DNA of 64,000 nucleotides, taken from IMG/VR virus record IMGVR_UViG_3300035703_000038, positions 1 to 64,000 of that record; one strand, given 5' to 3'. The translations under genes and the position numbers were made by a program. How positions within the stretch are numbered: the first letter of the stretch is position 1; each line of letters begins with the position of its first letter. The stretch comes from a virus. Below the pieces are notes generated by a model. The model was not told where the DNA came from. It did no database searches and worked only from the letters and a program-made list of their open reading frames with translations. This document shows positions 13,486 to 42,062 of this stretch, one piece after another.

Positions 13486-13516
13486 GGGGCCAGGAAACTG
13501 GCCCCTTTCTTTTTTA
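13486..13516 (+). terminator. Rho-independent terminator after gene 32
   Basis: A perfect 8-bp stem GGGGCCAG/CTGGCCCC closed by a GAAA tetraloop is followed by TTTCTTTTTT. It separates gp32 from the convergent minus-strand tail cluster, whose last stop codon overlaps the T-tract. No A-run lies on the far side, so it should act in the plus direction only. Confidence 0.9.
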
Positions 13517-15298
13517 GAATCCAAACATTGGTTGGCCGCCACCAAAGAAGCTTGCCTGCATACCAAATACTGGTGTGGCTGAAGTAGGCATGCTAATGTT
13601 CTGACTACTACTTTGGTTGACGTTTGTTGTTGTTACTGGAGCGACAACACTTTGTGAACTTGATCCACCTGCTGCACCACCGGCGCCAGCAACTCTCTGT
13701 GACTCGTTGGCTAAAGCCTGTCCTGCTGCTGGTTGCTGAGCAACTGGTGTAATTGTACCTGGCTTAACTTGACCTGGTGCAGCTTGTTGGGCAGGTGGCT
13801 GCATTGCTGCTGGCTTAGCCTGACCAGGTGTAGCAGGTGTAACAGCTTTAGCTTGTTCTGGTTTTGATTGCTGTTGCTTAGCTTTCTCTTTCTCTGCCTT
13901 TTGCATTGCCATGTCTGCATCCGACTTGGCAACTTCCTTTTGCATTTGACCAGTACCAACCAACTTACCTAGCAACGTGTCAGGTGGTGCAAGGGCGATC
14001 AGAAGTTTCTTTGCCAAAGCAGCAAGGTCAAAGTTGAATATCTCTTTGATAGCATCACCAAGTGCCTTGAATGGAGCTATAATCATATCTGTCAAGCCAC
14101 CAAGGATGTCGCCTGACATGATCTTAGTAAATGCATCACCTATACTTCCAACAAATGCCTTTAGTGTATCAAATATTGTTTGGATTGCGTTGTTTAAGAA
14201 CTCAGTGAAGTTGAATTCGCCAATCTTAGCAGCTAGTTCTTCAAATCCTAGCATACCAAGTAGTTTACTTAGTAGCCATGAGCCTAGATCACCAATCCAA
14301 CCAACCAAGCCAGAAATTATACCAGATGTGAATCCCTTGATGGCACCAAACACACCCTCTTCATCAAAGCCCTTAAATGCTTGAGAGATACCTTTGAATA
14401 GAGCCATGATAGTTGATATGACAACACCAATAGGACCTAGGAATCTACCAACAGCCCCTAGCATCTTACCAACTACACCAGCTGCCTTAGCACCAGCAGC
14501 AAAAAACTTTGACAATCCTTCGATGGCTTTGGTTACAATAGAACCGCCCTTGCCAGCCATACCAGCAATCTTGCCAATCATACTAAAGAATTTACCAACC
14601 TGTCTGAATGCATCTAGTACGCCATCAACAATCTTGGCGAACTTACCACCTGAAAATACTTTTGTTATTCTTTCAATCTGAGAGGAGTATGCAACAAGCA
14701 CGCCCCTGAATTCGTTGATTAGTCTGCCAGCTAGCTGGGCAACTTTACCACTTATTGATGGAAACTTGGCTGCAAGGCCTTTGAATGCTTTAGTTAGAGA
14801 GTTGATAGCATTACCAATTGCTGTCTTTAGGAAGCCAGCCATGAATGCTATAATCTTCGGCAGCTCCTTGAGAACTGACATAATTTGCTTTCTGAAAACA
14901 AGAACGAGAGCAGCAATTAAACCAAGCTCTTTCTTCAATCCTATGAAGAAGCCAACAATGAATGGAATAAGAATATTGATTAGCCCTTCAAAGAAGTCAA
15001 TCAACTTTTGGAATGGATTTTTCTTATCCTTCATCTCGCCAGGCTTCTTATCTTTTTCTCTAGATGCTTCTAATTGCTTAGCCTCATCTGGAGCCATCGC
15101 CTTCAGCGCTTCTTCAGTCTCTCTGAGAGAAGTTAACTGGGCACCCATAAACCCAGTCATGTTGTATAAGTTATCTGAGATGTTAGTTGCCAATACAACC
15201 AATCTCTCAATAGCCTTAAATTGAGGTTGCTCTAATTTAACAAGTACAGCTGATCTTGCAGCTGCATCATTGACTATTGGTAGTGGTTTATCTGCCAT
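13514..15298 (-). CDS. 29: Tail tape measure protein, gp29-like (594 aa)
   Basis: The length is nearly identical to T4 gp29 (590 aa), the tail length ruler packed inside the tube. An N-terminal charged helical region (to about residue 95) is followed by a long series of hydrophobic, Gly-rich segments with phage-tape-measure character (LINILIPFIVGFFIGL, LGPIGVVISTIMALF). A Pro/Gln/Ala/Lys low-complexity region (about residues 455-535) and a Gly/Ser-rich C-terminus end the protein. It sits directly after gp26/gp51, the classic position after the tail assembly chaperones. It is the last gene of the minus-strand cluster. Confidence 0.88.
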   Translation of the reverse strand: MADKPLPIVNDAAARSAVLVKLEQPQFKAIERLVVLATNISDNLYNMTGFMGAQLTSLRETEEALKAMAPDEAKQLEASREKDKKPGEMKDKKNPFQKLIDFFEGLINILIPFIVGFFIGLKKELGLIAALVLVFRKQIMSVLKELPKIIAFMAGFLKTAIGNAINSLTKAFKGLAAKFPSISGKVAQLAGRLINEFRGVLVAYSSQIERITKVFSGGKFAKIVDGVLDAFRQVGKFFSMIGKIAGMAGKGGSIVTKAIEGLSKFFAAGAKAAGVVGKMLGAVGRFLGPIGVVISTIMALFKGISQAFKGFDEEGVFGAIKGFTSGIISGLVGWIGDLGSWLLSKLLGMLGFEELAAKIGEFNFTEFLNNAIQTIFDTLKAFVGSIGDAFTKIMSGDILGGLTDMIIAPFKALGDAIKEIFNFDLAALAKKLLIALAPPDTLLGKLVGTGQMQKEVAKSDADMAMQKAEKEKAKQQQSKPEQAKAVTPATPGQAKPAAMQPPAQQAAPGQVKPGTITPVAQQPAAGQALANESQRVAGAGGAAGGSSSQSVVAPVTTTNVNQSSSQNISMPTSATPVFGMQASFFGGGQPMFGF

Positions 15299-15302
15299 TA
15301 AC

Positions 15303-15491
15303 TTATACGTCCGTAATACCTTGTTGCCTTAATCGTTCTTTCTCTTTCTCGATATAATCAATCAATAGTGTAATATAGATATCACGTTCATATGGTATTA
15401 GATCTTCAACATCACTAATTGAATATTTATGATGTTGGCAAAGTGCAAATACCGTCTGATAATAATTGGCCAGGTTGTTATACCCAGCCAA
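15303..15491 (-). CDS. 51: gp51-like tail assembly protein, possibly made by -1 frameshift from gp26 (62 aa)
   Basis: A small helical protein (YNNLANYYQTVFALCQHHKYSI then DLIPYERDIYITLLIDYIEKEKERLR) of the kind found next to gp26 in T4-like phages. It is much shorter than T4 gp51 (249 aa). No ATG is available: the best independent start is TTG at 15491 with no ribosome-binding site. The frame is open upstream across the end of gp26 in the -1 frame, and a slippery heptamer plus hairpin lies there. A gp26-gp51 fusion of about 293 residues is therefore likely. A fused G/GT-like pair before the tape measure would act as tail assembly chaperones. Confidence 0.7.
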   Translation of the reverse strand: MAGYNNLANYYQTVFALCQHHKYSISDVEDLIPYERDIYITLLIDYIEKEKERLRQQGITDV

Positions 15492-15503
15492 TATTAGAAA
15501 AAA
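15465..15503 (-). promoter_or_regulatory. Predicted -1 programmed frameshift signal at the gp26/gp51 junction
   Basis: Reading the minus strand, the gp26 codons AAT TTT TTC TAA contain the in-frame slippery heptamer T TTT TTC (15503-15497). After a 4-base spacer, a 10-bp stem (15492-15483 with 15474-15465, including two adjacent G-U pairs) closes an 8-base loop. Slipping by -1 avoids the adjacent TAA and enters the gp51 frame. Confidence 0.7.
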
Positions 15504-16183
15504 TTGTCGATGCCCTCTATAACAACGTCCTTGATAGTACCATCCTTCATCATATACTTGCTCTTGGCAACAATCTTTGGCATAGATTCAAAGAATACCT
15601 GAATCTGTTCCATCTGCTGCTTATTCAATGAAAGGATAAACTCATCAAGCTCTTTAGCTGTATAGTTGGCTACATCAAACACCTCATCACCTTCATAGAT
15701 CTGGGTGATGCAGCCTCTTAAAATACTTAGGATGTCAACCTTGTCACTATTGTTATTAACTAATGTTTCAAATGTTGGATACTTTAGTACAACACCAATT
15801 GTATCCGTTAACTTGATATTATTTGTCACACCTTCTTTCTTCACAACCTCAATCTTATCAAGGTTGAATTCAACTTCATACTGCTGCCCATCATCCTCAT
15901 TGTTGATTAGTACTTTGGCAATGTTAGATACTGACTTAGCTCTTAGGTTGATAAAGAAATATTCAATATCAAATGATGCCAAACCATCTACATCTACTGG
16001 ATCGATGCAGCAGTTGTTAATTAGTTGTTTGTATGTGTTAATGATATCTTTACGTTCACCAGACTCTTGAGCAATCATCAAAAGCTTTTCTTCTCTGACA
16101 GTGAATGGTCTGAACCTAATAGTCTTACCAGTTGATGGTAATGTTAAAGAGAAGATTGGTTGACTAATTTTTGGTAGTGGCAT
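15494..16183 (-). CDS. 26: Baseplate hub assembly / tail assembly chaperone, gp26-like (229 aa)
   Basis: The N-terminus (MPLPKISQPIFSLTLPSTGKTIRFRPFTVREEKLLM) and the following helical, acidic body match the gp26 family of T4-like phages (T4 gp26, 208 aa; same Pfam family as gp51, T4_baseplate). It is needed for hub assembly and is absent or scarce in virions of T4. A good ribosome-binding site (GAGGTG on the minus strand) precedes ATG 16183. The last codons carry the frameshift signal described separately. Confidence 0.82.
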   Translation of the reverse strand: MPLPKISQPIFSLTLPSTGKTIRFRPFTVREEKLLMIAQESGERKDIINTYKQLINNCCIDPVDVDGLASFDIEYFFINLRAKSVSNIAKVLINNEDDGQQYEVEFNLDKIEVVKKEGVTNNIKLTDTIGVVLKYPTFETLVNNNSDKVDILSILRGCITQIYEGDEVFDVANYTAKELDEFILSLNKQQMEQIQVFFESMPKIVAKSKYMMKDGTIKDVVIEGIDNFF

Positions 16184-16203: not shown

Positions 16204-17193
16204 TTAGAAAATATTCTTTAAGCTCTTGCCGCCAGTGACAGATCTCAGTTGATTCTTCAAGTCATTCTTGAATGTATTGTTTAAGTTTCTTAGAATGCCA
16301 AGAGTTTTCTTAACATCACTAACAGCACCAACAACATTCTGGGCAGTCTTAATGTATTCATTATTATAGATTGTACTTTCAACATCCTTCAATGTTGATA
16401 CTGATTGTGTTCTAATTCTCTGAGAGTTTTCTCTCATGTTTGTAGCAAAACTATTCAGCCTACTTAGGCCACTTTCAACGCCACCCTTAGGATCAAATTG
16501 TGGTGGCTTATATGTGAGATCAATTGGACCGGCATTGATCAATTGAGGAGCATTAACGCCCTTCAGTGCTGTGGAGTCTGCTGCAGATCCTAGGATCTTA
16601 TATTCAAAACTCCTATATGTAAATGTGACATTGAATGCCATTACTTCGTTACCTGCCTGCCAGTCTAGGGCTGTCTCAGACATTGTAACTGGGAATGCAT
16701 CATATAGAGTGAAGATCATTAGAGAACCATCTTGCGGATCAGATCCCTTTGATCTTAGCTTATCTTGATATAACATAATATCAATTCTAGTTGCATAATC
16801 CTGTCTATAAGATATCTGGTTACTGAACGCACCAGATCTAACCTGGCCTTGATCATGGCTCAGGTTAACAATATTTCTTAGCCAATCATAGAAATAGGCC
16901 ATTGATTGGCCAGTTGCATCAGCATAGAACTTTAGATTGATATCTGTCACGCCAATGTCATATGGCATCTTAACCATTGGACCTTGGCCATAGATCTTGT
17001 TTTCTGTTGTGAGAATCTGGACTCCTGGTAGTGATGTTGCAGCAGCCAGGTACGCTAGGTCTGGTCCCCCTGAGCCTTGCATGCCATTTTCTCTCATGGC
17101 CCAGGCTGGTGGATATACGTAAACCAAGAAGTTTGATGGTCTTAGAAAACCAACTTCTGTTGAAGATTTCCAATCTTGTATGCTAAATGCCAT
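16204..17193 (-). CDS. 54: Baseplate tail-tube initiator, gp54-like (329 aa)
   Basis: The size is near T4 gp54 (320 aa), with the family features: an N-terminal region with PSNFLVYVYPP, a central MPYDIGVTDINLKFYADATGQSMAYFYDWLRNIVNL, and MSETALDWQAGNEVMAFNVTFTYRSFEY before a charged helical C-terminus. gp54 caps the hub and nucleates the tail tube. It starts at the base where the next upstream gene ends, and is separated from gp26 by 20 bases. Confidence 0.85.
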   Translation of the reverse strand: MAFSIQDWKSSTEVGFLRPSNFLVYVYPPAWAMRENGMQGSGGPDLAYLAAATSLPGVQILTTENKIYGQGPMVKMPYDIGVTDINLKFYADATGQSMAYFYDWLRNIVNLSHDQGQVRSGAFSNQISYRQDYATRIDIMLYQDKLRSKGSDPQDGSLMIFTLYDAFPVTMSETALDWQAGNEVMAFNVTFTYRSFEYKILGSAADSTALKGVNAPQLINAGPIDLTYKPPQFDPKGGVESGLSRLNSFATNMRENSQRIRTQSVSTLKDVESTIYNNEYIKTAQNVVGAVSDVKKTLGILRNLNNTFKNDLKNQLRSVTGGKSLKNIF

Positions 17194-25340: not shown

Positions 25341-27334
25341 TGAGACAACTAGAAAGTTACATTTCACCATTTATTGCTGATCAGTTTCCTTCAATCTATA
25401 AGGAAGAAGGTCCTCTATTCATTGCTTTCGTCAAGGCATACTTTGAGTGGCTAGAATCAAATGGTCAAGTTGTAAATGATTCAAGACGCTTGCTCGAATA
25501 TAGAGATATTGATAAGACAGTAGATGAATTTGTCAACCAATTTAAAAAGAAGTATATGTTCCCTATCCCAGAAGATATTGCTGGTGATAAGAGACTACTA
25601 CAGAAGCACATCAAAGAAGTATACGGATCAAAGGGTACAGAACGTGGCTTGAAGCTTCTGTTCCAGCTACTGTTTGGTGATTCAATCAGTGTCTATAGAC
25701 CTGGCGATGATGTTTTCAGATTATCAGATGGTGATTGGAGTAGAGACATCTACCTCGAGGTTGCCTATAAGCCATTCAATTCACTATTTGTTGGTGAGTT
25801 TATCAGAGGACGTATCTCTGGTGCCCGTGCCTATGTTGCAAGCTTCCAGACAAAATATGTTAATAATAAAAACATTAACATCTTCTATTTAACTGATGTT
25901 CAAGGCAACTTCCTATACGATGAAGTAGTTCTTATTGATGAAAATAGATTGGCACCAGGCGTTGCCCCAGCTGTATCTGCTGTCAACTCACCAAAAATTA
26001 TTGGCTCACTAACAGAAGTAGATGTAACAAATAGATCATCTCCATTTGGATACACAGTTGGTGAACAACTTGAAGTCCAAGGCTCAGGCAAAGGTGGTAA
26101 GGTTGTTGTTACGAGTTTGCAAGAGCTAGATGGTACTGTATCATTTTTCCTAAAGGATGGTGGTTCAGGTTATACAGTCAACACAACAGTATTCACAATA
26201 TTTGGTCCAGTCACAGGTGTTGTGGTAGAGGCTGGTGGCTCAGGATACGCAAATTCTGACTACCTAATATTTTCTAATGGCACATCACTTGGATATGCCA
26301 ATCTTGTAACGAATAGCTCTGGTGGTATTCTCAATAATACTGCAACTGGCCAGACATACTTCTCAGTCACCAATGGTGGTAACGGATTCCAAACAGCACA
26401 GACATCCGTTGTAGTTACCATTGCCAACTCAACTGGTGGTGTATCAGGTGGTGTTGGTGCCAATCTAGTACCTACAATTGCTGGTGGTGGCGATGGCGCT
26501 GCTCTGAGAATTGGTGGGCTATCAGATCTTAAAAGTATATTTGGTTCCATTGTAAAAATTAATGCTATTGGTCAAACTACAACATATCTTCCTACAGCAA
26601 ACAGTTATGATGATATGGTTATTGGTACACCATCCTACCCAACAGGCACAGGCTATGGTTTGTCATCCAACGTTGCTGCTGGCTTTGATACAATCTTGGC
26701 CGATGCATTGGATTACAAAATCTACGAAGTTGGCACAATATCTAAAATCTTTACTGTCAATCCAGGTTCTGATTATACAACAAACTTGACTGTTACTGCT
26801 GTGGATACATTAATTAGTCAGTTTAAATTTTCCGACCAAGAACATCCTGCCGGTAGAGGACCAACTGGTAGTGGTAGACTTGGTAATAATGCCATCGTTA
26901 CGGCTGTTACAGGATTTGGTTCAGATGCACTTGGTTCTGTTAAAGTAATTGACTCAGGCTTAGGTTATGAGCAAAATGAAGAAGTAACTCTTGTATCTCT
27001 TTCAAATACAAACCTTGTTACCTCTGGTACAGCTCTACTTTCAAAGCAGGGTCAAGGTCAAGGTGAGTTCAAATCAACAAGAGGGTTTTTGAGCTCAGAT
27101 AAGTACATACATGACAGTTTTTATTATCAAGACTATTCGTACGAAGTTAGATCGTCAATTGTGTTTAATAAGTACAGTGATCTGTTAAGAAAATTATGGC
27201 ATCCAGCAGGTGTAGAGAAATTTGGTCGCGTGTTGGTAAGTAGTGAAGTAACAGTTGCCACTCCAGATATCAATACACAAGGATATGTTGGTGATGGTAG
27301 CACAACAACGTTTGGCATTCCTGGTGGGGCATGA
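25340..27334 (+). CDS. 7: Baseplate wedge, gp7-like C-terminal-type protein (664 aa)
   Basis: The N-terminal helical region (FIAFVKAYFEWLESNGQVV, then EVYGSKGTERGLKLLFQLLFGDSISVYRPGDD) corresponds to the C-terminal wedge-binding part of T4 gp7 (1,032 aa). The long N-terminal propeller of T4 gp7 is absent. Beta-rich modules follow, and the protein ends VGDGSTTTFGIPGGA. That end is the first strand of a small beta domain whose remainder begins the next gene. The overlap with the next ATG is four bases (ATGA). One extra G in the GGGG at 27,326-27,329 would fuse the two genes. Confidence 0.8.
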   Translation: MRQLESYISPFIADQFPSIYKEEGPLFIAFVKAYFEWLESNGQVVNDSRRLLEYRDIDKTVDEFVNQFKKKYMFPIPEDIAGDKRLLQKHIKEVYGSKGTERGLKLLFQLLFGDSISVYRPGDDVFRLSDGDWSRDIYLEVAYKPFNSLFVGEFIRGRISGARAYVASFQTKYVNNKNINIFYLTDVQGNFLYDEVVLIDENRLAPGVAPAVSAVNSPKIIGSLTEVDVTNRSSPFGYTVGEQLEVQGSGKGGKVVVTSLQELDGTVSFFLKDGGSGYTVNTTVFTIFGPVTGVVVEAGGSGYANSDYLIFSNGTSLGYANLVTNSSGGILNNTATGQTYFSVTNGGNGFQTAQTSVVVTIANSTGGVSGGVGANLVPTIAGGGDGAALRIGGLSDLKSIFGSIVKINAIGQTTTYLPTANSYDDMVIGTPSYPTGTGYGLSSNVAAGFDTILADALDYKIYEVGTISKIFTVNPGSDYTTNLTVTAVDTLISQFKFSDQEHPAGRGPTGSGRLGNNAIVTAVTGFGSDALGSVKVIDSGLGYEQNEEVTLVSLSNTNLVTSGTALLSKQGQGQGEFKSTRGFLSSDKYIHDSFYYQDYSYEVRSSIVFNKYSDLLRKLWHPAGVEKFGRVLVSSEVTVATPDINTQGYVGDGSTTTFGIPGGA

Positions 27335-30300
27335 GCAATATAACGGTTAAAGTAAATGGAGTACTTCAGGTGCTTGGCACCGATTACACCATTTCTGGTA
27401 ACAATGTTGTATTTACGACAGCACCCGCTGCCAATAGTAAAATTGAAATTCGTAAAGAAGCAGAAAGAACTGCAATTGAAACAAGCTTCAAGATCCAGCA
27501 GGTATTCTTAACTCAGCTTGTAACTTCCTATGCAACAGAAACAACTGTTACAACTACATTTGCTACAGCAACTGGCCAGGTCACACTCACAGCTTATGTT
27601 ACTGATGTAGATACATCTAGAACAACCAACTCAGTATTTGGCACTAGCAAATCAACATCAACTAGCTACCCAACAGTATTTAATACTGCATATGGAACAA
27701 CAAAGAACACAGCTTCTCAGTATGTAACGGCTTACGAATCTGGATTCCAAACAGTGACTGTATTTGATACAGATATCAATACGGCTGTTGACACAACAAG
27801 AACAACCAATACAACATTCCCAACCTCTTTGGCTACTGCCACATCACAATCAACAGTTACGGTTGTTAACTTTAACACAACATACAGTACAGACCAGACA
27901 ACAACCACTGCATTTGAGACAGCTTATAGCACGGTATTTAATACAACAACTGCATACGAAACAAATAGAACAACTGTCTTTGATACAAACCTATTAACAG
28001 CAACATCTAGACAGACAGATACATCTAAGCAAACATCTAGCGTATATGACACTACATATTCGTCTTTCTATGCTACAAGTACTACATTTGACACAGTTAT
28101 CAATACAGCTGTCAACACATCCAAGTCAACAGATACAAGCCAGGCTACAAGTAAGTCAACAAATACGACTACAACATTTGTAACTATTTTTGAAACAGCT
28201 GGCTCAACATCAAGAAACACAGCCACTGTATATGACACAGTGTTTGATACAAACAGGTTGACTGGTACAACAATCAATACAACATTTGATACTATTATTG
28301 GCACAAGTAAGGCCACAAGCACATCTAAATCAACAACATCTGTATTCAACACATCAACAACATTTGATACAGTGTTTGATACTGGCTATGATACATCCAA
28401 GTCAACTACATCAGTATTCAATACAACAACGTCATTCAATACTGTATTTGAAACAAACTTTGGCACTACGACTGCTTTTGATACAAACAGAGCTACAGAC
28501 ACATCAAAAAATACTGCTACTAGTAAAAGTACAACAACAGCCTTCAATACAATTACATCTTATGATGTAACTACAACATTTGTTACTGCCTATAATGCTG
28601 CAACTGTTTATATTACGACACAGGGTGCTGACACTGCTAGATCAACAAGCAGAATAACAGATACAAATAGATCCACAACAACTGCTTTTGATACTACAAC
28701 AACTTATGGTACAACATTCTATTTTATTACCAGCAAGCAGACAGATACTAGCAGGCAAACAGATACAAGCAAGAGCACATCAACTGTATTCAATACTATA
28801 ACAGCATACGATACGTTAGTTGCAACTGCTGTTACTAAGAGTACTACAACATCTTTCAATACAATAACAACGTTCAATACAACGTATGATTCCACATACA
28901 ACACAACTTATTCAACAGACTCAGGAACTACACAGCAGACAGACACATACAATAGTGGATCTGGTAACGTAACTGCTCCAGCTGGTGCCACATCCGTAAC
29001 TATCAAGGTTTGGGGTGGCGGTGGTGGCGGTGGCTGTGGTGAAACGCGTAGTGCCGGCGATCTTGGCGGCGGTGGTGGTGGCTCAGGTGCCTATGTTGAG
29101 AAGACAGTTTCTGTAACTGGTGGCTCAACATCATTTTCATATTCTGTTGGTTTAGGTGGTGGTGGATTTGGTAACCCTCCAGGTGCCAATGATGACGATT
29201 CGTTTGCAACAGGTGATGCTGGTGGACAGTCAACTGTAACTGGTACTGGCGTCAACATGGTTGCTCCAGCAGGTAATGGTGGCCAGTGTGCTTATTATGA
29301 TTCATTTGGTGATATTGTAACTGGCGGTGTAGGTGGATTTGGTGGCTTTGGCGCTAGTGGCGGTGATACAAACACGGATGGTAATGCAGGTAACCAGGGT
29401 GGTATAAACTTTGGTGGCCAAGGTGGTAGTGCTCCAAGTGGTGGCACTGGTGGTGCTGGTGGTACAGGTACTGGTGATGGTTCAACTGGTGGCGCTCCAG
29501 GTGCCGGTGGTGGCGGTGGCGGTGAGAATGATGGTAGTGGTGGTAATGGTGCTGATGGTCGCGTTGAGTTTGTTTGGACTATCTCCACAACAACAATCAC
29601 AACAAGATCAACAAGTGTATCGACATCAAAGTCTACAACACTATCAACTGGCACATCTGCATCTACAACAACTGCTTATAGTGTTGACACAGCCTACCCA
29701 ACAAGTAGAACAACATCCACATCTAAGTCAACAACTACTGTATTCCAGACCGCAACTACATTCCAGACAATAACATCATTCAATACTGGTCTTGGTGGTA
29801 CAACAAGCAGGGCTACTGGCACAAGCAGATCAACAGTATCTGTATTCCAGACAACATCGACATATGATACCTCATATGGTACTACATTCTACTTCAACAC
29901 GAGTAAGGGCACCACATTCTACTTTAATACAAGTAGAGCAACTACTGTAGCCCAAGCAACAGGTACAAGTAGAGGCACAACAACTGTATATGATACAAGC
30001 ACAATATTCCAAACATCCACTATATTTGGTACAAGTGCTGCAACCACAACAGTGTTTAATACAGCTAGAGGCACAAGTGCTGTAACAGCAACATCAAAAT
30101 TAACAACAACAGCCTATAATACTGTTGTTGCCACATCTCTTGCAACCAGCAGAACAACAGCAACATCTAAATCAACTACAACTGTATTTGATACTACAAC
30201 TGCATTTGACACAGCTTATGCTACAAGTAGATCAACTGTTAAGAATACAACAACTACATTTGAAACAAACATCAGCACAAATAAGCAGACAGCTACAACA

Positions 30301-33300
30301 TTTACTACAACATTTAATACTGCAGCTGCCACAGGTTTAGCAACATCAACAACTACAACCTATTCAACTGTTTATTCTACAACAACAACTTATAACACAG
30401 GTTACGATACTGCATTTGCAACAAATCGTAATACCGACACATCTGTAATTACAGTTAAATCGACAAGTAAACAAACAGCCTCTGTATTTCAGACTGCTAC
30501 CACATTTGATACAAGCACTGCATTTGAGACTTCTAGATCAACAGTATTTGACACTCTAATTGCTACTAGCACGTCGCGCGATACAGTTATTGGTACTGCT
30601 AGAAGCACACTATCAGCATTTGAAACAACTATTGGTACATCTTCAAATAAGTCAACAACAACTGTCTATAATACAACAACAATCTTTGACACATCAAGAC
30701 AGACAACATCTATATTTGTAACTGGCTATAACACTGCATACGCCACAAACAAGCTAACCAACACGAGTGTGTTCACTACAGGCGTAACAACAATAATTAC
30801 ATCTACGGCATTTGATACTGTGTATGAAACTAACAGAAACACAGCAAGAAACACCACAACTGCCTATGATACAAATTTTGACACAACAACTGCATTTGAA
30901 ACAGTTGTTGATGAATCTAGAAACACAGCCACTGTATTCAATACAAATACATCCTCATCTCTACAAAGAAATACAGATACAGCAATTCTGACTGAATATA
31001 GAATTCTTGCTACACAAACCGTGTATAGCTCAACATACCAGACATTCTATGAAACTATTGCTGGTGTGCTAACATCTGTTGATACAAATGTTACGACAAG
31101 TAAGGTAACAGATACTGCTTATGTTGCTCAGAATAGAAACACGTTACGTGACACAGCATATCAAACAACAAACCCTACTGTAGTTCAGACAAGCACTCTA
31201 GGTAACACAAGTGCCACTGTCATTTTTAACACGACATTTGTAACATATGACACAGCCTTTGCAACTAGCAAGTCAACTACGTCTGTATTCAGCACATCAT
31301 ATGAAACTGTAGCTGGTACATCCAAGTCAACATCGACTGTTTACGATAGTGTATTTGATACAACAAAACAAACAACAATTACGACAGATACAGCTTCACC
31401 AACATCTAGATTGACAGCTTATGGTACAGGCACAAGCAGAACAACAACATCCGCTTTCTCTACAGTCATAACAACGACATATGGAACAGGTTATAATACA
31501 TCTAAGACAACCGATTCTGTCTATGTGACAGCATTCTTAACTGTATCAACATTTCAAACATCACCTCTTACTTCAGTATCTACATTACTGTCTAAGACAA
31601 CAGAGACATCAACGTTCTTTGCTACATCACAAGCAACAGATAAGAATACACTAACAAGCAGATCAACAGTTTATGTAAGTGGTGTATCGACAACTTCTCG
31701 TACAACAGAGTTTGCTACAGCAACATCAATCAATACAAGCTATGATACAAGAAGAGGTACTGATACTACAACTCAATATGAAGGTACGACTGTATTTGCT
31801 ACTGTATATGATACAAATCTAAATGTTGGCACAACAAGAATAACAGATGTTGCTACCTCAACAGCATACAACACTGTTATTAATACAGCAAGAGATACAG
31901 AAGTTGCTACAAGTAAGAATACAACAACAGCATTTGATACTGATACAGCAATACAAACATCATTTGATACAACAATTGCTACACAGTCAAGTTCTAGCAC
32001 TGCCTATGCCACAAACATTAGTACAAGTAAGTCAACAAGCTCAGTATTTGATACAACTTATGAAGTCAATACATCAACTAGCAAGTCAACGACTACTGCT
32101 TATCAAACAATATTCCAAACATCTAGAAATACAAGCACTGCTTATCAAACACTATTCAATACAGTGTATAGGGATACTGCTCTAGATACTGATGTAACCA
32201 CAACTACCGCTAAGGCAACAACTGGTGTAACAGGCACATCCACTATATCTGCAACATCAAGGACAACGACATATATTACAGAAGCACTGACAGATACGAC
32301 GTATCTAATGTCGAGCTCATATGCCACATCTACTGTATTTGAAACAGTTGTAGGATCTTATTACTTGACAGTGTTTGATGGTACGACAACATACGACACC
32401 AACTCTGGTGCTGGTACAATGAAGTCTACTTCTAAAACAACCAGCCTATCAAGAGCTACATCAACATACTTTGAATCAGCTTATGTAACATTGTTCCAAT
32501 CAACAACAGTGTTTGCAACTGATATCACAACAACAGGTATTAAGTCAACAGCAAGCAGATACCAAACAGACCTAGGCCTAGGTACTCTAAGAGACACAAT
32601 TGTCTTTACAAATGTCTACACCTCAACAAGTAAGACAACTGCAACAGGTACTGGCTTCAATACAACAACGACATATGATACTGGTATCCAAGCTGTTACA
32701 GATGTGCTGACTGCCGAAACAAAGAATACATCATATGATACTCTAACAAGATATGATACAGTTATCAACACAACAACATCATATCTATCATCATACTCAA
32801 CAATTGTTGATACGTCAAGAACTACATTAACTTCGACTGCCTTTGATACTTCTAGGGCAACTGCAACCATCTTCCAGACTGACTCTGGTGCTGGTACATT
32901 GCGTAACACATCTTTAAGTACAACAACAGCATTTGAAACTGTGTTTGTAATTACTCAATCATCTAAGTCAACTACAACAACATTCAATACAATTTCAAGA
33001 TATGACACAGCTCTTGATACAGATGTTTCTACAGCTACAAGCAAATCGACAGTTAGTGCTTATACAAGATTTGAAGGTGGTAGAACAACATCAACCGTAT
33101 TCAATACAGGGTATGAAACATTACCATTAGCCATCACAGTTGTTGGTACAACAAGATCAACAGCAACAGTTATTGTTACTGCATACCAAACATCATCTGC
33201 TACAGCTTATGATACAACTAGAGCAACAAACAAAACAACAACTACTGCATTTGAAACAACATACGGTACCGGTATCTTAACGGCAAGAGACACTTATACG

Positions 33301-34158
33301 TCTACAACAACTTCAACTGCATTCTTAACAGAATCAGCAAGATTGACCAATACTGTTTATAAGAACACTGCATTTGATACAGATGTGACAACTGCCACAA
33401 TTACTCAATTTGCTACAGAAACATCAAGAAACACAGCTACTGTTATCTCAACTGATACAACAATATCTACAACAACGGCTGGTGGTGCTACAACATCAAC
33501 TTCGTTCCAAACTGCAACACTAACATCCACATCATTCTATACAACTACTATAACGATTTCTGACTTGTTAACATCTAAGACAACAACAACAGGCTATGAG
33601 ACATCTTCATATATTGATACAACAATAGCAACTGTTTACCAAACATTAACACAAGTAGCCACATTAATTAATACAGTTGGCGTAACTCAGTTTGACACAT
33701 CTAGAACGACAGATGTTGAAATTGACTTCTCTGTTAGAGCAACAAGCTTCCAAACATTGACAGTTGTAGATACGTCAACAGCCTATGTCACCGGTAGCAG
33801 AATCACTCAGCGTTCTACAACAACATTGAGAAATACTGATACAGTTGAATATGTTAGAGATACAACAAGAACATCTGATCCAAATACAGTATACCAGACT
33901 AGCACAGTGTTCCTAACAACTACAGGCTCTGGTCTAGATACAGATAAGGTAACATCAAGACAGACTGACACAGAAAGATCAACATCATTTGTAACGGCCT
34001 TTGATACAACTACAACTTACCAGACAGATTCTGGTGCTGGTACAATGAAGTCAACATCCAAGGCTACAGCAACATCCAGAGCAACTGACCAGCAAGTTCA
34101 GACAAGCTATGATACTGCTATTCAGACAACATATGAAACTGTTTATATAAATAATTAA
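27331..34158 (+). CDS. Giant Thr-rich repetitive structural protein (2,275 aa)
   Basis: Residues 1-45 complete a small beta domain (TVKVNGVLQVLGTDY, SGNNVVF, IEIR). From about residue 50 to the end the protein is a Thr/Ser-dominated repeat in which an aromatic residue, Asp or Asn, then Thr (FDT, FNT, YDT, YET) recurs every 4-12 residues, separated by TSKSTTT-type linkers. A Gly-rich island (about 28,950-29,575) containing the only Cys and Trp I noticed interrupts it. There is almost no Pro. No enzyme motif is visible. Its place between gp7 and gp8 points to a virion fiber, perhaps a beta-solenoid or coiled fibre. I do not recognise the family and no specific function is assigned. Confidence 0.85.
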   Translation: MSNITVKVNGVLQVLGTDYTISGNNVVFTTAPAANSKIEIRKEAERTAIETSFKIQQVFLTQLVTSYATETTVTTTFATATGQVTLTAYVTDVDTSRTTNSVFGTSKSTSTSYPTVFNTAYGTTKNTASQYVTAYESGFQTVTVFDTDINTAVDTTRTTNTTFPTSLATATSQSTVTVVNFNTTYSTDQTTTTAFETAYSTVFNTTTAYETNRTTVFDTNLLTATSRQTDTSKQTSSVYDTTYSSFYATSTTFDTVINTAVNTSKSTDTSQATSKSTNTTTTFVTIFETAGSTSRNTATVYDTVFDTNRLTGTTINTTFDTIIGTSKATSTSKSTTSVFNTSTTFDTVFDTGYDTSKSTTSVFNTTTSFNTVFETNFGTTTAFDTNRATDTSKNTATSKSTTTAFNTITSYDVTTTFVTAYNAATVYITTQGADTARSTSRITDTNRSTTTAFDTTTTYGTTFYFITSKQTDTSRQTDTSKSTSTVFNTITAYDTLVATAVTKSTTTSFNTITTFNTTYDSTYNTTYSTDSGTTQQTDTYNSGSGNVTAPAGATSVTIKVWGGGGGGGCGETRSAGDLGGGGGGSGAYVEKTVSVTGGSTSFSYSVGLGGGGFGNPPGANDDDSFATGDAGGQSTVTGTGVNMVAPAGNGGQCAYYDSFGDIVTGGVGGFGGFGASGGDTNTDGNAGNQGGINFGGQGGSAPSGGTGGAGGTGTGDGSTGGAPGAGGGGGGENDGSGGNGADGRVEFVWTISTTTITTRSTSVSTSKSTTLSTGTSASTTTAYSVDTAYPTSRTTSTSKSTTTVFQTATTFQTITSFNTGLGGTTSRATGTSRSTVSVFQTTSTYDTSYGTTFYFNTSKGTTFYFNTSRATTVAQATGTSRGTTTVYDTSTIFQTSTIFGTSAATTTVFNTARGTSAVTATSKLTTTAYNTVVATSLATSRTTATSKSTTTVFDTTTAFDTAYATSRSTVKNTTTTFETNISTNKQTATTFTTTFNTAAATGLATSTTTTYSTVYSTTTTYNTGYDTAFATNRNTDTSVITVKSTSKQTASVFQTATTFDTSTAFETSRSTVFDTLIATSTSRDTVIGTARSTLSAFETTIGTSSNKSTTTVYNTTTIFDTSRQTTSIFVTGYNTAYATNKLTNTSVFTTGVTTIITSTAFDTVYETNRNTARNTTTAYDTNFDTTTAFETVVDESRNTATVFNTNTSSSLQRNTDTAILTEYRILATQTVYSSTYQTFYETIAGVLTSVDTNVTTSKVTDTAYVAQNRNTLRDTAYQTTNPTVVQTSTLGNTSATVIFNTTFVTYDTAFATSKSTTSVFSTSYETVAGTSKSTSTVYDSVFDTTKQTTITTDTASPTSRLTAYGTGTSRTTTSAFSTVITTTYGTGYNTSKTTDSVYVTAFLTVSTFQTSPLTSVSTLLSKTTETSTFFATSQATDKNTLTSRSTVYVSGVSTTSRTTEFATATSINTSYDTRRGTDTTTQYEGTTVFATVYDTNLNVGTTRITDVATSTAYNTVINTARDTEVATSKNTTTAFDTDTAIQTSFDTTIATQSSSSTAYATNISTSKSTSSVFDTTYEVNTSTSKSTTTAYQTIFQTSRNTSTAYQTLFNTVYRDTALDTDVTTTTAKATTGVTGTSTISATSRTTTYITEALTDTTYLMSSSYATSTVFETVVGSYYLTVFDGTTTYDTNSGAGTMKSTSKTTSLSRATSTYFESAYVTLFQSTTVFATDITTTGIKSTASRYQTDLGLGTLRDTIVFTNVYTSTSKTTATGTGFNTTTTYDTGIQAVTDVLTAETKNTSYDTLTRYDTVINTTTSYLSSYSTIVDTSRTTLTSTAFDTSRATATIFQTDSGAGTLRNTSLSTTTAFETVFVITQSSKSTTTTFNTISRYDTALDTDVSTATSKSTVSAYTRFEGGRTTSTVFNTGYETLPLAITVVGTTRSTATVIVTAYQTSSATAYDTTRATNKTTTTAFETTYGTGILTARDTYTSTTTSTAFLTESARLTNTVYKNTAFDTDVTTATITQFATETSRNTATVISTDTTISTTTAGGATTSTSFQTATLTSTSFYTTTITISDLLTSKTTTTGYETSSYIDTTIATVYQTLTQVATLINTVGVTQFDTSRTTDVEIDFSVRATSFQTLTVVDTSTAYVTGSRITQRSTTTLRNTDTVEYVRDTTRTSDPNTVYQTSTVFLTTTGSGLDTDKVTSRQTDTERSTSFVTAFDTTTTYQTDSGAGTMKSTSKATATSRATDQQVQTSYDTAIQTTYETVYINN
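27540..34140 (+). repeat. Degenerate Thr-codon-rich tandem repeat region
   Basis: The DNA is dominated by ACA/ACT triplets with recurring words such as ACAACAACA, TTTGATACA and ATCTAAGTCAACA. The units are degenerate in length and sequence, so it is not a strict satellite. The Gly island at 28,950-29,575 interrupts it. Plus-strand purine/pyrimidine content differs sharply from neighbouring genes. Confidence 0.8.
34146..34153 (+). promoter_or_regulatory. T4-type late promoter upstream of gene 8, inside the Thr-rich gene's last codons
   Basis: An exact TATAAATA overlapping codons for the final Tyr-Ile-Asn of the Thr-rich protein. The gp8 ATG is at 34181, giving a leader of about 21 bases. Confidence 0.78.
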
Positions 34159-36774: not shown

Positions 36775-39700
36775 CAGTAAACACAACAAACTTTCCAAAT
36801 GGCTCTAAGATTATTAACGACGTATCCCAAGCTCGTGGTTTTGTTGTCAATGCATATTCAAATACACTTGGTGACTTTGTTGAACTAAGAAATGTCAGAA
36901 AGACATTTGTTGCTGGTGACACAGTTACACTATCAACAGATGCAGGTATAACAGCAAGCATTCTAGATGTTGATTATATCAGCTTTGCCAACTCATTTAT
37001 TGACTCCGTAAATGTATTACCATCCAATGGCGTCCTTTATGGTAACTCATTGGGCTTTGCCTACGGTGTCACAGTATCACCTGGTGTAGTATTCCATAAG
37101 GGCCACTTCATTAAGGTTAGCGAACATACAACAATTGTTAATGAAAATAATGGTGATCCAGCTGGTAAGGTTTTATACTTCAACACCGACGAAGTTGTAG
37201 TTAAGGAAACTGACGATGCATCATTGTTTGATAATGCTTCTGGCACAACAAACATCAACGCACCTGGCGCTCATAGATTAAAACTTGTATCAACACTTAT
37301 TGCAAGAGATAAGGTTGGTGCCAACGCTATTTCAAATACCGATATTGCATTCCCAATTGTTGAGTTTGGAAACAATGGTCCAATCTTCCAAAGAACAAAC
37401 ACAGAGTATAACCTACTAGGTGAAGAGCTAGCTAAGAGAACATTTGAAGAGTCCGGCCACTATATTGTCAAACCATTCAACCTAACAACCAAGCCTCATG
37501 AAAATGATACAACAAGATTGTTCTATGATGTAAGCCAAGGTTTAGCTTATGTCAAGGGTCAAAGAAGAGAATTCATCAATAGACAAAATGTTCCAGGCAG
37601 AAGAGGTGTTGATACAATCAGCCGTGACCAGGCTATCACATCAATGTCATTTGGCAACTACACCCTTATAAATGATTTGAAGGGTTATTTCCCTGTAGAT
37701 CAGTCAAGCGAAGTTGTATTCTATAATGCTGAGCAAAATGCTGTATCTGGTACTGCATACAGAGAACCAGGTTCAACAGCAAACGGCACAATCGTTGGCT
37801 ATGCTAATATTAGAGCAATTAAGTACGTTGACTCAACAACAGCATTGAAGGGTGACCCTTCTGCAGTCTATAGATTATACATTTTTAACTACAGACCAGT
37901 TGGTACCTATACATTCCAAGATGCAAGATCAGTTGTTTACCACTCAGGTGTTGCAAACTCTACAAATGCAGAAGCATTTGCCGATCTAATTCTAAACACA
38001 AATAATGTCCCTACAATCTTTGAACAATCATTAACGCCACTACTATTCAGTTTGAATACGACAGCTGTTAAGGATCTGAGAAATGCTAATGGTGTCTACG
38101 ATACAAACTATTTCTATACAGCTGCTAATACTGCTGCAACTCTCTCAGAAGCAGGTGTAATTACATTTGGTATTGGCGCCCAGCAAGGTATTCTAGGATT
38201 TAGTAACGGCTCCTCAATTGAGGAAGCCTTGGTGGATGTGGTAGTTGAAGCAAACTGTACTACAAATAACTTAGTAGGTACAATCAGTTGTAACAGCACT
38301 AGTACGACTGTAACAGGATCATCTACAACATTCACGCAAGACTTTGTTGTTGGTGAACATATTACTCTACCTTTCCATAGCCAGACTAGAAGAATCACAG
38401 CAATTGCTAGTGACACTTCGTTGACAGTCAATTCAGTATTCTCTACTAGTGTCGCCAACAACTACCAAAGAACACACGTTAAGGGTTCAATTATTGCACT
38501 AAACCCAACAAGTGGTACAAAGAGAGTACTTGATCCATCTGAAGATCAAGAGTCAGCAACAATTAACTTATCATCAGTATATAATGGTCAGACAGCAGTT
38601 ACAGTTAGATTCTACGCATACAATAATGATGGTGCTACTCTAAAGAAAGAAATCACAAGAAATTCTCTTGTAATTATCAACACTGCCAACAACATTGCTA
38701 ATAGCGCTACTGGCCCATGGAATTTGGGTGTACCAGATGTATTGAAGATTACAGGCGTATATGTTGGTACAAACTCATCAAACTTTATTCTAGATGTCAA
38801 CAAGGCATCAGAGTTTGTTCTTGATAATGGTCAGCGCGACACACATTACGACCATGCTAAGATTTCATTATCACCTGAATCTTCAATGAACCTTGCTAAC
38901 AACTGGCTACTAGTTCAGTTTGATTGCTTTACAGTAAACTCATCTGTTGGCCAAGGGTTCTTCTCTGTAGAATCATATCCAGTAAATGATCAGTTGAATG
39001 CAAACGTACAGACATATATCAAGACATACGAGATTCCAAGCTACACTGTAACAGTTGGCAATACCCCAGTCAAGTATGATCTAAGAGATGTTGTTGACTT
39101 TAGACCATATAAGTCTAACACAGCTGCAGTCACTACTTCATTCACTGCTGCAACTATTAACCCTTCAGCAACAAATACATTCCAGACCAAGACTACAGAA
39201 TATAATCCATGGCCTGGCTCTACAATGCAAACAAACTTCACCTACTACCTAGGTAGAAAGGATAAGTTGGTATTGACAGCCGAAGGACAGTTTAAGGTAG
39301 AAGAAGGTATTCCAGATATTCTACCAAGAGCACTTCCAAATAGTCCTGAAGTGTTAACAATTGCTGATATTACAGTCCCTCCATATCCTTCATTGACAGA
39401 TACTGAGAAGTTGTTCCTACAAAGAACTGACTATAACATCAAGTATGATATTCTATCTCATAAGCGCTTCACAATGAAGGACATTTCGGTTCTTGAGAAG
39501 AGAATTGAGAGACTGGAATATTATACAACACTGAATATGCTAGAGAATCTAGCACTACAAACAACGATTGCTGATAGTAATGGCGACCAAAGATTCCAGA
39601 ATGGCTTCTTTGTTGATCCATTCAACAATCACGTGTTTGGTAGAACAGATGATGCTGAGTATAAGATTGCTATCGATGAAAAGAATGGCCTACTAAGACC

Positions 39701-42062
39701 AGCATTTGACCCAGAAGTTATTGAGATGGAGTTTGATACAGACACATCATCATACGCTAATGTTCAGATCACAGGCTCAATGGTTACACTTCCATATACA
39801 GAAGAAGTATTCATCGACCAACCATACGCTTCCGATGTTGTAAACATTTCAGGTTCACCTATCAAGTGGGTTGGTACAATTGATGTAAGACCTAAGGTTG
39901 CCAACGATATTGAATACTTGGCAAGAGCAGTTGCAGTTGGTAGTACATCATCTGTAGCTCAGGCTTATGAAAACATGAAGTCTGTAACACCAGGTACAGC
40001 TCAGTATGGCTGGTGGAGAGATAATGTTCAGACATCTGCCGACTTCAATCCAGGTGCCGCAGCCAATGATGCAAGAGACAGAACAACAATCTCTGCTCAA
40101 TCTGGCACATCTGTAACAACAGAAACAGGTGAGAAGGTTACAGCTGGTATTATCTACTACTCGAAGGAAAGAGTATATGGATTCAAGGCAGTTGGCCTAA
40201 AGCCAAATACTATCCACTACTTGTTTGTCAATGATAATGAAAACTCACAGCTAGCAGCATTGGGTGAGCTAAGCGCAAATCCAAATGCTTCTGATGAAGG
40301 CTTTGTTACAAGAACGACAACATGGGGTACACCACTCGAGTCTGACTCACGCGGTGAAATTATTGGTAAGTTTATTGCACCAGCATTCTCATTGAAGTCT
40401 GGTACACATAGACTATCACTAAGAGATAGAAGAACAAGAGCAACTGGCTTAGATACATCATATGCTGATGCATACTTTGTGTTGGATGTTACAACACAAG
40501 ATCCACCAGACATCGTCGAGCCACCTCCTCCTCCTCCTCCACCACCACCTCCTCCTCCGCCACCAGGCAACACAACTCCACGTCCAAACTTGGATGCAAG
40601 ATTTGTTGTAACTGGCAACACTACGATTTATGCTGAGGCAAATTCAACCGGTGGAATCCCAAGTGGTACATTTACGCTAACATTCACAAATGATAGCACC
40701 ATCTCAAATGGTACCATCACAGGATATAATTGGAACTTTGGTGCAATACCAGGATCTGTAACGTGTTCATTGAATACAGCTGCAAATGCTGGTCCACATA
40801 CAGTTAACATTACGCCAATTAATTCTGTTCAAGATATTAATGTATCGTTGATTGTAACAGACAACACATCTCAGACGAAGGAACAAGTACAAACAATTAG
40901 ACTAACTAAGCTACCTAAGGCTTCTCCACCATCCGCAAATGTTGTTCCAGGTAACACAAGCCCAGAAGGTATGAAGTTAACATTGTTTGCTTCAGTACTA
41001 AACCAGTTGTCAGACTCACTCGTATATAACGATCCAGCTCTAAGACCTGACTTCTACACAAACTGGAACCCAGGTATTTCTGGATTTACTGATGCACAAT
41101 TGTTGTCGCTAACATATGATACTGCAGCATCTCTTGGTACTAACACAGCACTAAGAATTATTGCTAAGCCAGAATATGATTATGAGGGTAATGTTGTTTG
41201 GACAATCACAAGTTCATCTGGTCCAGCTCTAACAAACTACTCATACGCTAACGTAACACAAATGTATGTTACAACTAGCGGTTCTGGTTATTCAAACAAT
41301 GATACAATCAAGCTATCAAATGGCCAGGTAGATGCTACTGCAACATTGTTTACTGATTCATCTGGTGGTATCATCTATGTCAACTTGACATCAAGAGGTA
41401 ACTTCTCTAATGGTGCAGTTGCCAATACTGAATCATTTACAGCAAATAGCACTGTAAACAATAACTTCACAATGAATAGAAGTGTTTCAAGCAACACAGA
41501 TATTCAGGTTGCAGTTAATGGTCTACTACAAACACCAACAACTGATTATGGTGTAAGTGGCTCAACATTGACATTCCCAACTAACCTAACAGTATCACCA
41601 AGTCCAGACATTGTACAGGTGACACACCTTGCATCGTTGACACCTGGTACTGGTTTGTTGGATGCAAGTCAAATTAGAGTCCAGGTTGCCAACTCAACTG
41701 CTCCTGCCAATAGCACAAACGGTAATACATCAGGTGGTAGTGGAGCTCAGTTTGCGATCATCCTTGGTGGAACAGCAAACTCCATTTCATCATCACCTAA
41801 GGTAACAAACGACACATTCACGTTGTACTCAAGCAGTACATCGAATGCTGAGTCTACTGTTACAGTCCGCGCCCAGTTCTACCTAGCTAATGGCTACGCA
41901 AATGTTGTTGGTACAGCAGAGCAGTCATTCACACTAAGAAACACTGCTGCAGTAACGCCAACTGCTCCAAACCCAGGTGGTGGTTCAACAGGTGTTGGAT
42001 CTGGTAGCAATGGTGGTGGAGCTGGTAAGCGTGACGAAAGAGTTAATGTGAAGAGAAATTAA
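36732..42062 (+). CDS. DUF4815-like structural protein, C-terminal portion of the disrupted gene
   Basis: The frame is open from 36,732, just after TAG 36,729-36,731. It reads SFIDKVILTVNTAVTV and on through FAYGVTVSPGVVFHKGHFIKVSE, as expected for the same protein; the first ATG, 37,050, is far inside the conserved region. Further on are GHYIVKPFNL, the KDISVLEKRIERLEYYTTL helix (about 39,478), a 15-proline run (40,521-40,565), Ig-like domains, a FTANSTVNNNFTM-type beta module, and a Gly-rich basic end. With the N-terminal part, the whole gene would be 36,241-42,062, about 1,940 residues. It is probably a baseplate or fiber-base protein. Confidence 0.8.
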   Translation, partial: SFIDKVILTVNTAVTVNTTNFPNGSKIINDVSQARGFVVNAYSNTLGDFVELRNVRKTFVAGDTVTLSTDAGITASILDVDYISFANSFIDSVNVLPSNGVLYGNSLGFAYGVTVSPGVVFHKGHFIKVSEHTTIVNENNGDPAGKVLYFNTDEVVVKETDDASLFDNASGTTNINAPGAHRLKLVSTLIARDKVGANAISNTDIAFPIVEFGNNGPIFQRTNTEYNLLGEELAKRTFEESGHYIVKPFNLTTKPHENDTTRLFYDVSQGLAYVKGQRREFINRQNVPGRRGVDTISRDQAITSMSFGNYTLINDLKGYFPVDQSSEVVFYNAEQNAVSGTAYREPGSTANGTIVGYANIRAIKYVDSTTALKGDPSAVYRLYIFNYRPVGTYTFQDARSVVYHSGVANSTNAEAFADLILNTNNVPTIFEQSLTPLLFSLNTTAVKDLRNANGVYDTNYFYTAANTAATLSEAGVITFGIGAQQGILGFSNGSSIEEALVDVVVEANCTTNNLVGTISCNSTSTTVTGSSTTFTQDFVVGEHITLPFHSQTRRITAIASDTSLTVNSVFSTSVANNYQRTHVKGSIIALNPTSGTKRVLDPSEDQESATINLSSVYNGQTAVTVRFYAYNNDGATLKKEITRNSLVIINTANNIANSATGPWNLGVPDVLKITGVYVGTNSSNFILDVNKASEFVLDNGQRDTHYDHAKISLSPESSMNLANNWLLVQFDCFTVNSSVGQGFFSVESYPVNDQLNANVQTYIKTYEIPSYTVTVGNTPVKYDLRDVVDFRPYKSNTAAVTTSFTAATINPSATNTFQTKTTEYNPWPGSTMQTNFTYYLGRKDKLVLTAEGQFKVEEGIPDILPRALPNSPEVLTIADITVPPYPSLTDTEKLFLQRTDYNIKYDILSHKRFTMKDISVLEKRIERLEYYTTLNMLENLALQTTIADSNGDQRFQNGFFVDPFNNHVFGRTDDAEYKIAIDEKNGLLRPAFDPEVIEMEFDTDTSSYANVQITGSMVTLPYTEEVFIDQPYASDVVNISGSPIKWVGTIDVRPKVANDIEYLARAVAVGSTSSVAQAYENMKSVTPGTAQYGWWRDNVQTSADFNPGAAANDARDRTTISAQSGTSVTTETGEKVTAGIIYYSKERVYGFKAVGLKPNTIHYLFVNDNENSQLAALGELSANPNASDEGFVTRTTTWGTPLESDSRGEIIGKFIAPAFSLKSGTHRLSLRDRRTRATGLDTSYADAYFVLDVTTQDPPDIVEPPPPPPPPPPPPPPPGNTTPRPNLDARFVVTGNTTIYAEANSTGGIPSGTFTLTFTNDSTISNGTITGYNWNFGAIPGSVTCSLNTAANAGPHTVNITPINSVQDINVSLIVTDNTSQTKEQVQTIRLTKLPKASPPSANVVPGNTSPEGMKLTLFASVLNQLSDSLVYNDPALRPDFYTNWNPGISGFTDAQLLSLTYDTAASLGTNTALRIIAKPEYDYEGNVVWTITSSSGPALTNYSYANVTQMYVTTSGSGYSNNDTIKLSNGQVDATATLFTDSSGGIIYVNLTSRGNFSNGAVANTESFTANSTVNNNFTMNRSVSSNTDIQVAVNGLLQTPTTDYGVSGSTLTFPTNLTVSPSPDIVQVTHLASLTPGTGLLDASQIRVQVANSTAPANSTNGNTSGGSGAQFAIILGGTANSISSSPKVTNDTFTLYSSSTSNAESTVTVRAQFYLANGYANVVGTAEQSFTLRNTAAVTPTAPNPGGGSTGVGSGSNGGGAGKRDERVNVKRN

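Follow-up and report, generated by a model that had tools for sequence, protein, structure and literature searches.

Do the adjacent reading frames homologous to T4 genes 26 and 51 in this uncultured phage encode two separate proteins, or are they one gene translated in two frames? The first-pass annotation of the window (the whole stretch of 64,000 nucleotides that was analysed) had proposed that gp26 and gp51 form a -1 frameshift pair like the lambda tail assembly chaperones. We find it highly probable that the two frames are one gene yielding two tail assembly chaperones through a -1 frameshift. The sequence signals, their conservation, the selection acting on them and the homology with the short and long genes of T4 are direct observations; the slippage and its rate are inferred, as is the chaperone role, the latter from gene position and the T4 relatives.

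Organization of the gp26-gp51 locus

The features of the locus, all on the minus strand, were as follows.

16204..17193, minus strand: tail tube family gene (gp19/gp54-like)
15494..16183, minus strand: gp26 homologue, putative short tail assembly chaperone form (TAC-N, lambda gpG-like), 229 aa
15503-15497, minus strand: candidate slippery heptamer T_TTT_TTC in the X_XXY_YYZ register, inside the overlap of both frames
15303..15497, minus strand: gp51, putative -1 frame extension (TAC-C, lambda T-like), 64 aa after the slip, no ATG
13514..15298, minus strand: tape measure protein gene

The gp26 homologue matched PF12322 (E = 5.2e-56), the family of T4 gp26, and PHROG 150 (E = 1.8e-63), and gp51 matched PHROG 634, the tail of T4 gp51 (E = 3.5e-23); NCBIfam gave no meaningful match. 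The gene directly upstream matched the tail tube families PF23849 (E = 1.8e-6) and PHROG 45 (E = 1.1e-28). The tape measure gene, placed just beyond the pair by the first-pass annotation, does start 5 nt past gp51 and was recognized by PHROG tape measure families (E = 7.6e-6 and 3.1e-5). The gp26-gp51 pair is flanked by the tube gene upstream and the tape measure gene downstream.

The 3′ end of the gp26 frame reads GAC AAT TTT TTC TAA, with the stop codon at 15496-15494 (minus strand). The gp26 end, the T_TTT_TTC register, the 4-base spacer and the coordinates of a 10-bp downstream hairpin were all confirmed at the base level. The description of gp51 as open in the -1 frame, devoid of ATG and preceded by no ribosome-binding site also held: the gp51 frame proper (15303-15491, minus strand) has 62 codons for amino acids, its only usable start is the TTG at 15491, and the sequence preceding this TTG, TTTTTTCTAATA, contains no purine-rich ribosome-binding site. 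The predicted fusion is 229 + 64 = 293 aa long, in agreement with the earlier estimate of about 293 residues, and its junction would include ...DNFFLILAGYNN...

The AlphaFold2 model of gp26 had a pLDDT of 86. Its fold matched nothing in the PDB at E ≤ 0.001, and a sequence search of the PDB found nothing related; in a viral structure library, T4-like hub proteins were among the best named matches. A 66-aa tail was modeled with low confidence (pLDDT 67.5) and was mostly helical.

The slippery heptamer and the open -1 frame in related phages

A nucleotide search of the phage collection returned a single short match of 73%, and protein searches were therefore used. With gp26 as the query, 604 phage records were retrieved at E ≤ 1e-3; most were cyanophages, and the rest were phages of Vibrio, Stenotrophomonas, Aeromonas, Sinorhizobium and others. 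For the conservation analysis, 178 loci in which the gp26 end is complete were fetched, and 123 of them were left once near-duplicates had been removed. An in-frame T6 heptamer was present near the gp26 3′ end in 175 of the 178 loci; the three without it were Det7 (Ackermannviridae) and two phages, T4 and RB49, in which the short and long forms are separate genes.

The heptamer in register, the open -1 frame and a homologous gp51 tail occurred together in every one of the 123 non-redundant junction-type loci, supporting the frameshift pair as first proposed. The heptamer was TTTTTTC in 91 of these loci, TTTTTTT in 30, TTTTTTA in 1 and TTTTTTG in 1 (TTTTTTG is the heptamer of phiM9). The codon before the heptamer was TCT, GAT, AGT, AAT, GCT, TTT, ACT or GGT, that is, T-ending in 123/123. 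Where this codon specified Asn, Ser or Asp it ended in T in 115/115 cases, compared with 73% elsewhere in the same genes (p ~2e-16 if the loci are taken as independent, which they are not fully). Just 5 of 120 other Phe-Phe pairs in the same gp26 genes were encoded as T_TTT_TTY. The conservation of the heptamer is far beyond chance.

Named phages sharing the arrangement include DLP6 and phiM12, the nearest named relatives of the window phage, as well as P-SSM2, P-HM1, ACG-2014f, ValKK3, D481, AP1, X1, OLIVR5 and LPCS28. Annotation of the gp51 tail varied among the phage collection records (own catalyst gene, hypothetical, or unannotated).

A sequencing error in the T run, with an extra T turning the locus into a plain fused gene, was also considered. 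Because four independent contigs from other metagenomes (L001-L004, gp26 76-87% identical) carry the same T6C run, such an error was ruled out in practice.

We considered whether gp51 might instead be a separate small gene, starting at TTG 15491 or translated by re-initiation past the gp26 stop. Many phage records give it a CDS of its own, as most database annotations do, and in some loci the -1 frame contains an ATG at codon 2-7. However, 58 of 120 loci offer no ATG, GTG or TTG within the opening 8 codons of the -1 frame, and the window TTG has no ribosome-binding site. A separate gene would also make the heptamer and its register unnecessary, and T4 gp51 is one continuous protein holding both halves. 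We regard a separate gp51 gene as extremely improbable and retain the frameshift.

Downstream structure and upstream Shine-Dalgarno-like element

Two further elements flank the heptamer in the window.

15513..15517, minus strand: Shine-Dalgarno-like GAGGG, 9 nt upstream of the heptamer
15465..15492, minus strand: predicted hairpin, 10 bp, up to 15 bp into the stop codon when free

The stem pairs 15492-15483 with 15474-15465 (10 bp, including two G-U pairs) and is separated from the heptamer by the 4-nt spacer TAAT (15496-15493), which includes the stop codon. Folded alone, the window stem reached 15 bp and -16.2 kcal/mol (z -4.18), and none of 200 shuffled sequences was as good. We also folded about 45 nt after the heptamer against a synonymous null, in which the -1 frame amino acids were fixed and codons were redrawn from the same genes. 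The window fold was at -15.7 kcal/mol versus -6.7 kcal/mol under this null (z -4.06). Across the locus set, the fold after the heptamer was more stable than the synonymous expectation (mean z -1.84, sem 0.17, n = 120), with mean z of -0.18 and -0.13 in control stretches further into the -1 frame; the loci are phylogenetically related, and set-wide z and t figures overstate the number of independent tests. Strong stems often started 4-7 nt past the heptamer and reached 11 bp in several loci; others were more distant. In most loci, the downstream structure is selected beyond the protein code.

In the same test (n = 120), a significant hairpin was absent from about a third of the loci. The comparisons among relatives that the first-pass annotation had suggested all came out in favour of its reading: the heptamer proved conserved, the gp51 start was missing in many loci, and the downstream structure was present in most. 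The hairpin was, however, not universal. Strict homology of the hairpin did not hold, since even the closest neighbours of the window clade differ from it in stem register: the stems of L006, L098 and DLP6 lie in the same place, apparently shifted by one register. Owing to this shift, a column-wise count of compensatory pairs was not feasible, and the synonymous null was used instead. Rfam had no match at the gp26-gp51 junction.

Upstream of the heptamer, GG occupied positions -10/-11 in 105 of the 123 non-redundant loci. Pairing with the anti-Shine-Dalgarno sequence was above the synonymous expectation across the locus set (paired t -7.0, with independence overstated for these related loci). 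The window's own GAGGG was no stronger than its synonymous expectation (p = 0.255). In the literature searched, whose scope did not extend to Vladimirov et al. 2022, no description of the Shine-Dalgarno-like element or of the selected downstream structure was found for the T4-like group.

In the mechanism that we propose, the majority of ribosomes would stay in the 0 frame and end at TAA, giving the 229-aa short form, and a minority would slip by -1 on U_UUU_UUC and so produce the long form of 293 aa, whose C-terminal domain would be helical. Two features would hold the slipping ribosomes: anti-Shine-Dalgarno contact with GAGGG, ~10 nt before the heptamer, and the hairpin that begins 4 nt after it. 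As in lambda gpG/gpGT, many short and few long copies would coat the tape measure protein. By the same analogy, the C-terminal domain of the long form may recruit the tube subunit, and both forms may depart before the virion is completed.

An identical fusion protein could arise if RNA polymerase rather than the ribosome slipped on the T run and added one extra U. A T run is indeed present, and in 2 of the 123 non-redundant loci (L065 and L074) it is T9, long enough for known bacterial polymerase slippage (PMC5009743). However, most runs are short (exactly 6 in 91 of the 123 loci, 7 in 26 and 8-9 in only six), the T_TTT_TTN register is kept even though it is irrelevant to transcription, and the Shine-Dalgarno-like element and downstream structure point to the ribosome. 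Polymerase slippage is therefore very unlikely in our assessment, and ribosomal frameshifting is the reading that we follow. A T9 run was also seen at the L066 junction.

Short and long forms in T4 and RB49, and a possible different slip site in Ackermannviridae

In T4, gene 26 is on one strand and gene 51 on the opposite one, upstream of 27-28-29; RB49 has the same layout of separate short and long genes. T4 gp26 matched PHROG 150 over positions 14-235 of 282, and T4 gp51 matched it over positions 13-280, including the -1 tail, as one continuous protein with both halves. The end of T4 gp26 (..GLKEFFELL) can be set beside the 0-frame products of the frameshift loci, which end in ..GL..FF. A profile of the -1 tails matched gp51 of T4 (6.3e-8) and RB49 (9.6e-12), but not gp26 of either phage. 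In T4, the unshifted product has its counterpart in gp26, and the full fusion has its counterpart in gp51. Because the gp26 match stops at 235 and the gp51 match reaches 280, T4 encodes the short and long forms as paralogous genes.

A T4 review counts both proteins among the hub assembly chaperones and records that the particle lacks gp51 (PMC3004832). Conceivably, both forms are made in the window phage but serve chiefly in the assembly of the baseplate hub and not as chaperones of the tape measure protein; in T4, older genetic work and annotation assign the two proteins to the hub pathway of the baseplate (PMC3004832). However, gp29, the tape measure protein of T4, also forms part of the hub, so the two roles need not conflict, and the gene position and the short/long format fit tape measure chaperones. 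A chiefly hub-related function seems unlikely to us, and we favour the tape measure chaperone role.

The gp26 homologues of four Ackermannviridae (L091, which is Det7, L182, L183 and L184) end in GAR ATT TTC ATT TAA (TTTTTGAA). This ending was kept in 4/4 records checked, from Kuttervirus and Taipeivirus, and no T6 heptamer was present. Their -1 frame at the gp26 3′ end encodes a gp51-like tail (..GYSIFEISESMPW..). The absence of the T6 heptamer, combined with a gp51-like tail in the -1 frame, suggests that Ackermannviridae may use a different slip site.

More tentatively, and at slightly less than even odds in our judgement, a three-part signal (a Shine-Dalgarno-like element ~10 nt upstream, a U6Y heptamer and clade-specific 3′ structure) may set the short:long chaperone ratio in frameshifting T4-like phages; T-even phages would have replaced this signal by gene duplication, and Ackermannviridae would use a different, apparently undescribed slip site.

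Relation to known frameshifted chaperones

In lambda, the -1 frameshift produces gpG and gpGT at a ratio of ~30:1, and both proteins associate with the tape measure protein and bring in tube subunits (PMC5009743). The window pair likewise comprises a short form and a predicted -1 extended long form, encoded between the tube and tape measure genes. The lambda slip sequence is G_GGA_AAG, in contrast to U_UUU_UUC in the window pair, and the predicted fold of the window gp26 had no detected relation to any solved structure. A 2016 review described the G-T frameshift as conserved in long-tailed phages ‘except T4’ (PMC5009743).

The first-pass annotation was unaware of such frameshifting having been established for T4-like phages. 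It has already been reported: passages in later papers credit Vladimirov et al. 2022 with slippery polyT tracts in the TAC-N genes of this phage group (PMC12846349) and with some T4-like phages having one short gene and one long fused gene (PMC10885494). Frameshifted chaperones are thus already on record for this group, its biology is as published, and the window pair is a strongly supported new example. The abstract of Vladimirov, Gautam & Davidson 2022 (Virology 566:9-15, doi 10.1016/j.virol.2021.11.003) reportedly covers both polyT slip sites and the pairing of a short gene with a fused long one, and mentions T4 genes 26 and 51 by name. The T4-like tail assembly chaperones belong to the same families as the window pair (PF12322/PHROG 150 and PHROG 634) and share its short and long forms; the window phage would make both by frameshifting within a single gene pair, and in T4 and RB49 they come from separate genes.

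In the chaperone genes of Vandenendeviridae and Andersonviridae, a polyuridine motif for -1 slippage likewise lies close to the 3′ end of TAC-N, and the short frame that follows was once annotated as a separate gene (PMC12846349). Their motif is GTTTTT, however, and they belong to other phage families. The E. coli dnaX cassette resembles the window locus in its upstream Shine-Dalgarno-like element, heptamer and downstream stem-loop (PMC5009743), and differs in its A_AAA_AAG heptamer, its efficiency of about 50% and its unrelated protein.

These results correct a widespread annotation. In hundreds of T4-like phages, cyanophages included, the ‘gp51 baseplate hub assembly catalyst’ is very probably the tail of a frameshifted chaperone and not a gene of its own. 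The results also make the switch between frameshifting and the duplicated genes of T4 directly testable.

Elsewhere in the window, four very long frames on the plus strand (27331-34158, 37050-42062, 48480-52286 and 54863-60184; 2275, 1670, 1268 and 1773 aa, respectively) surround the baseplate wedge and fibre genes.
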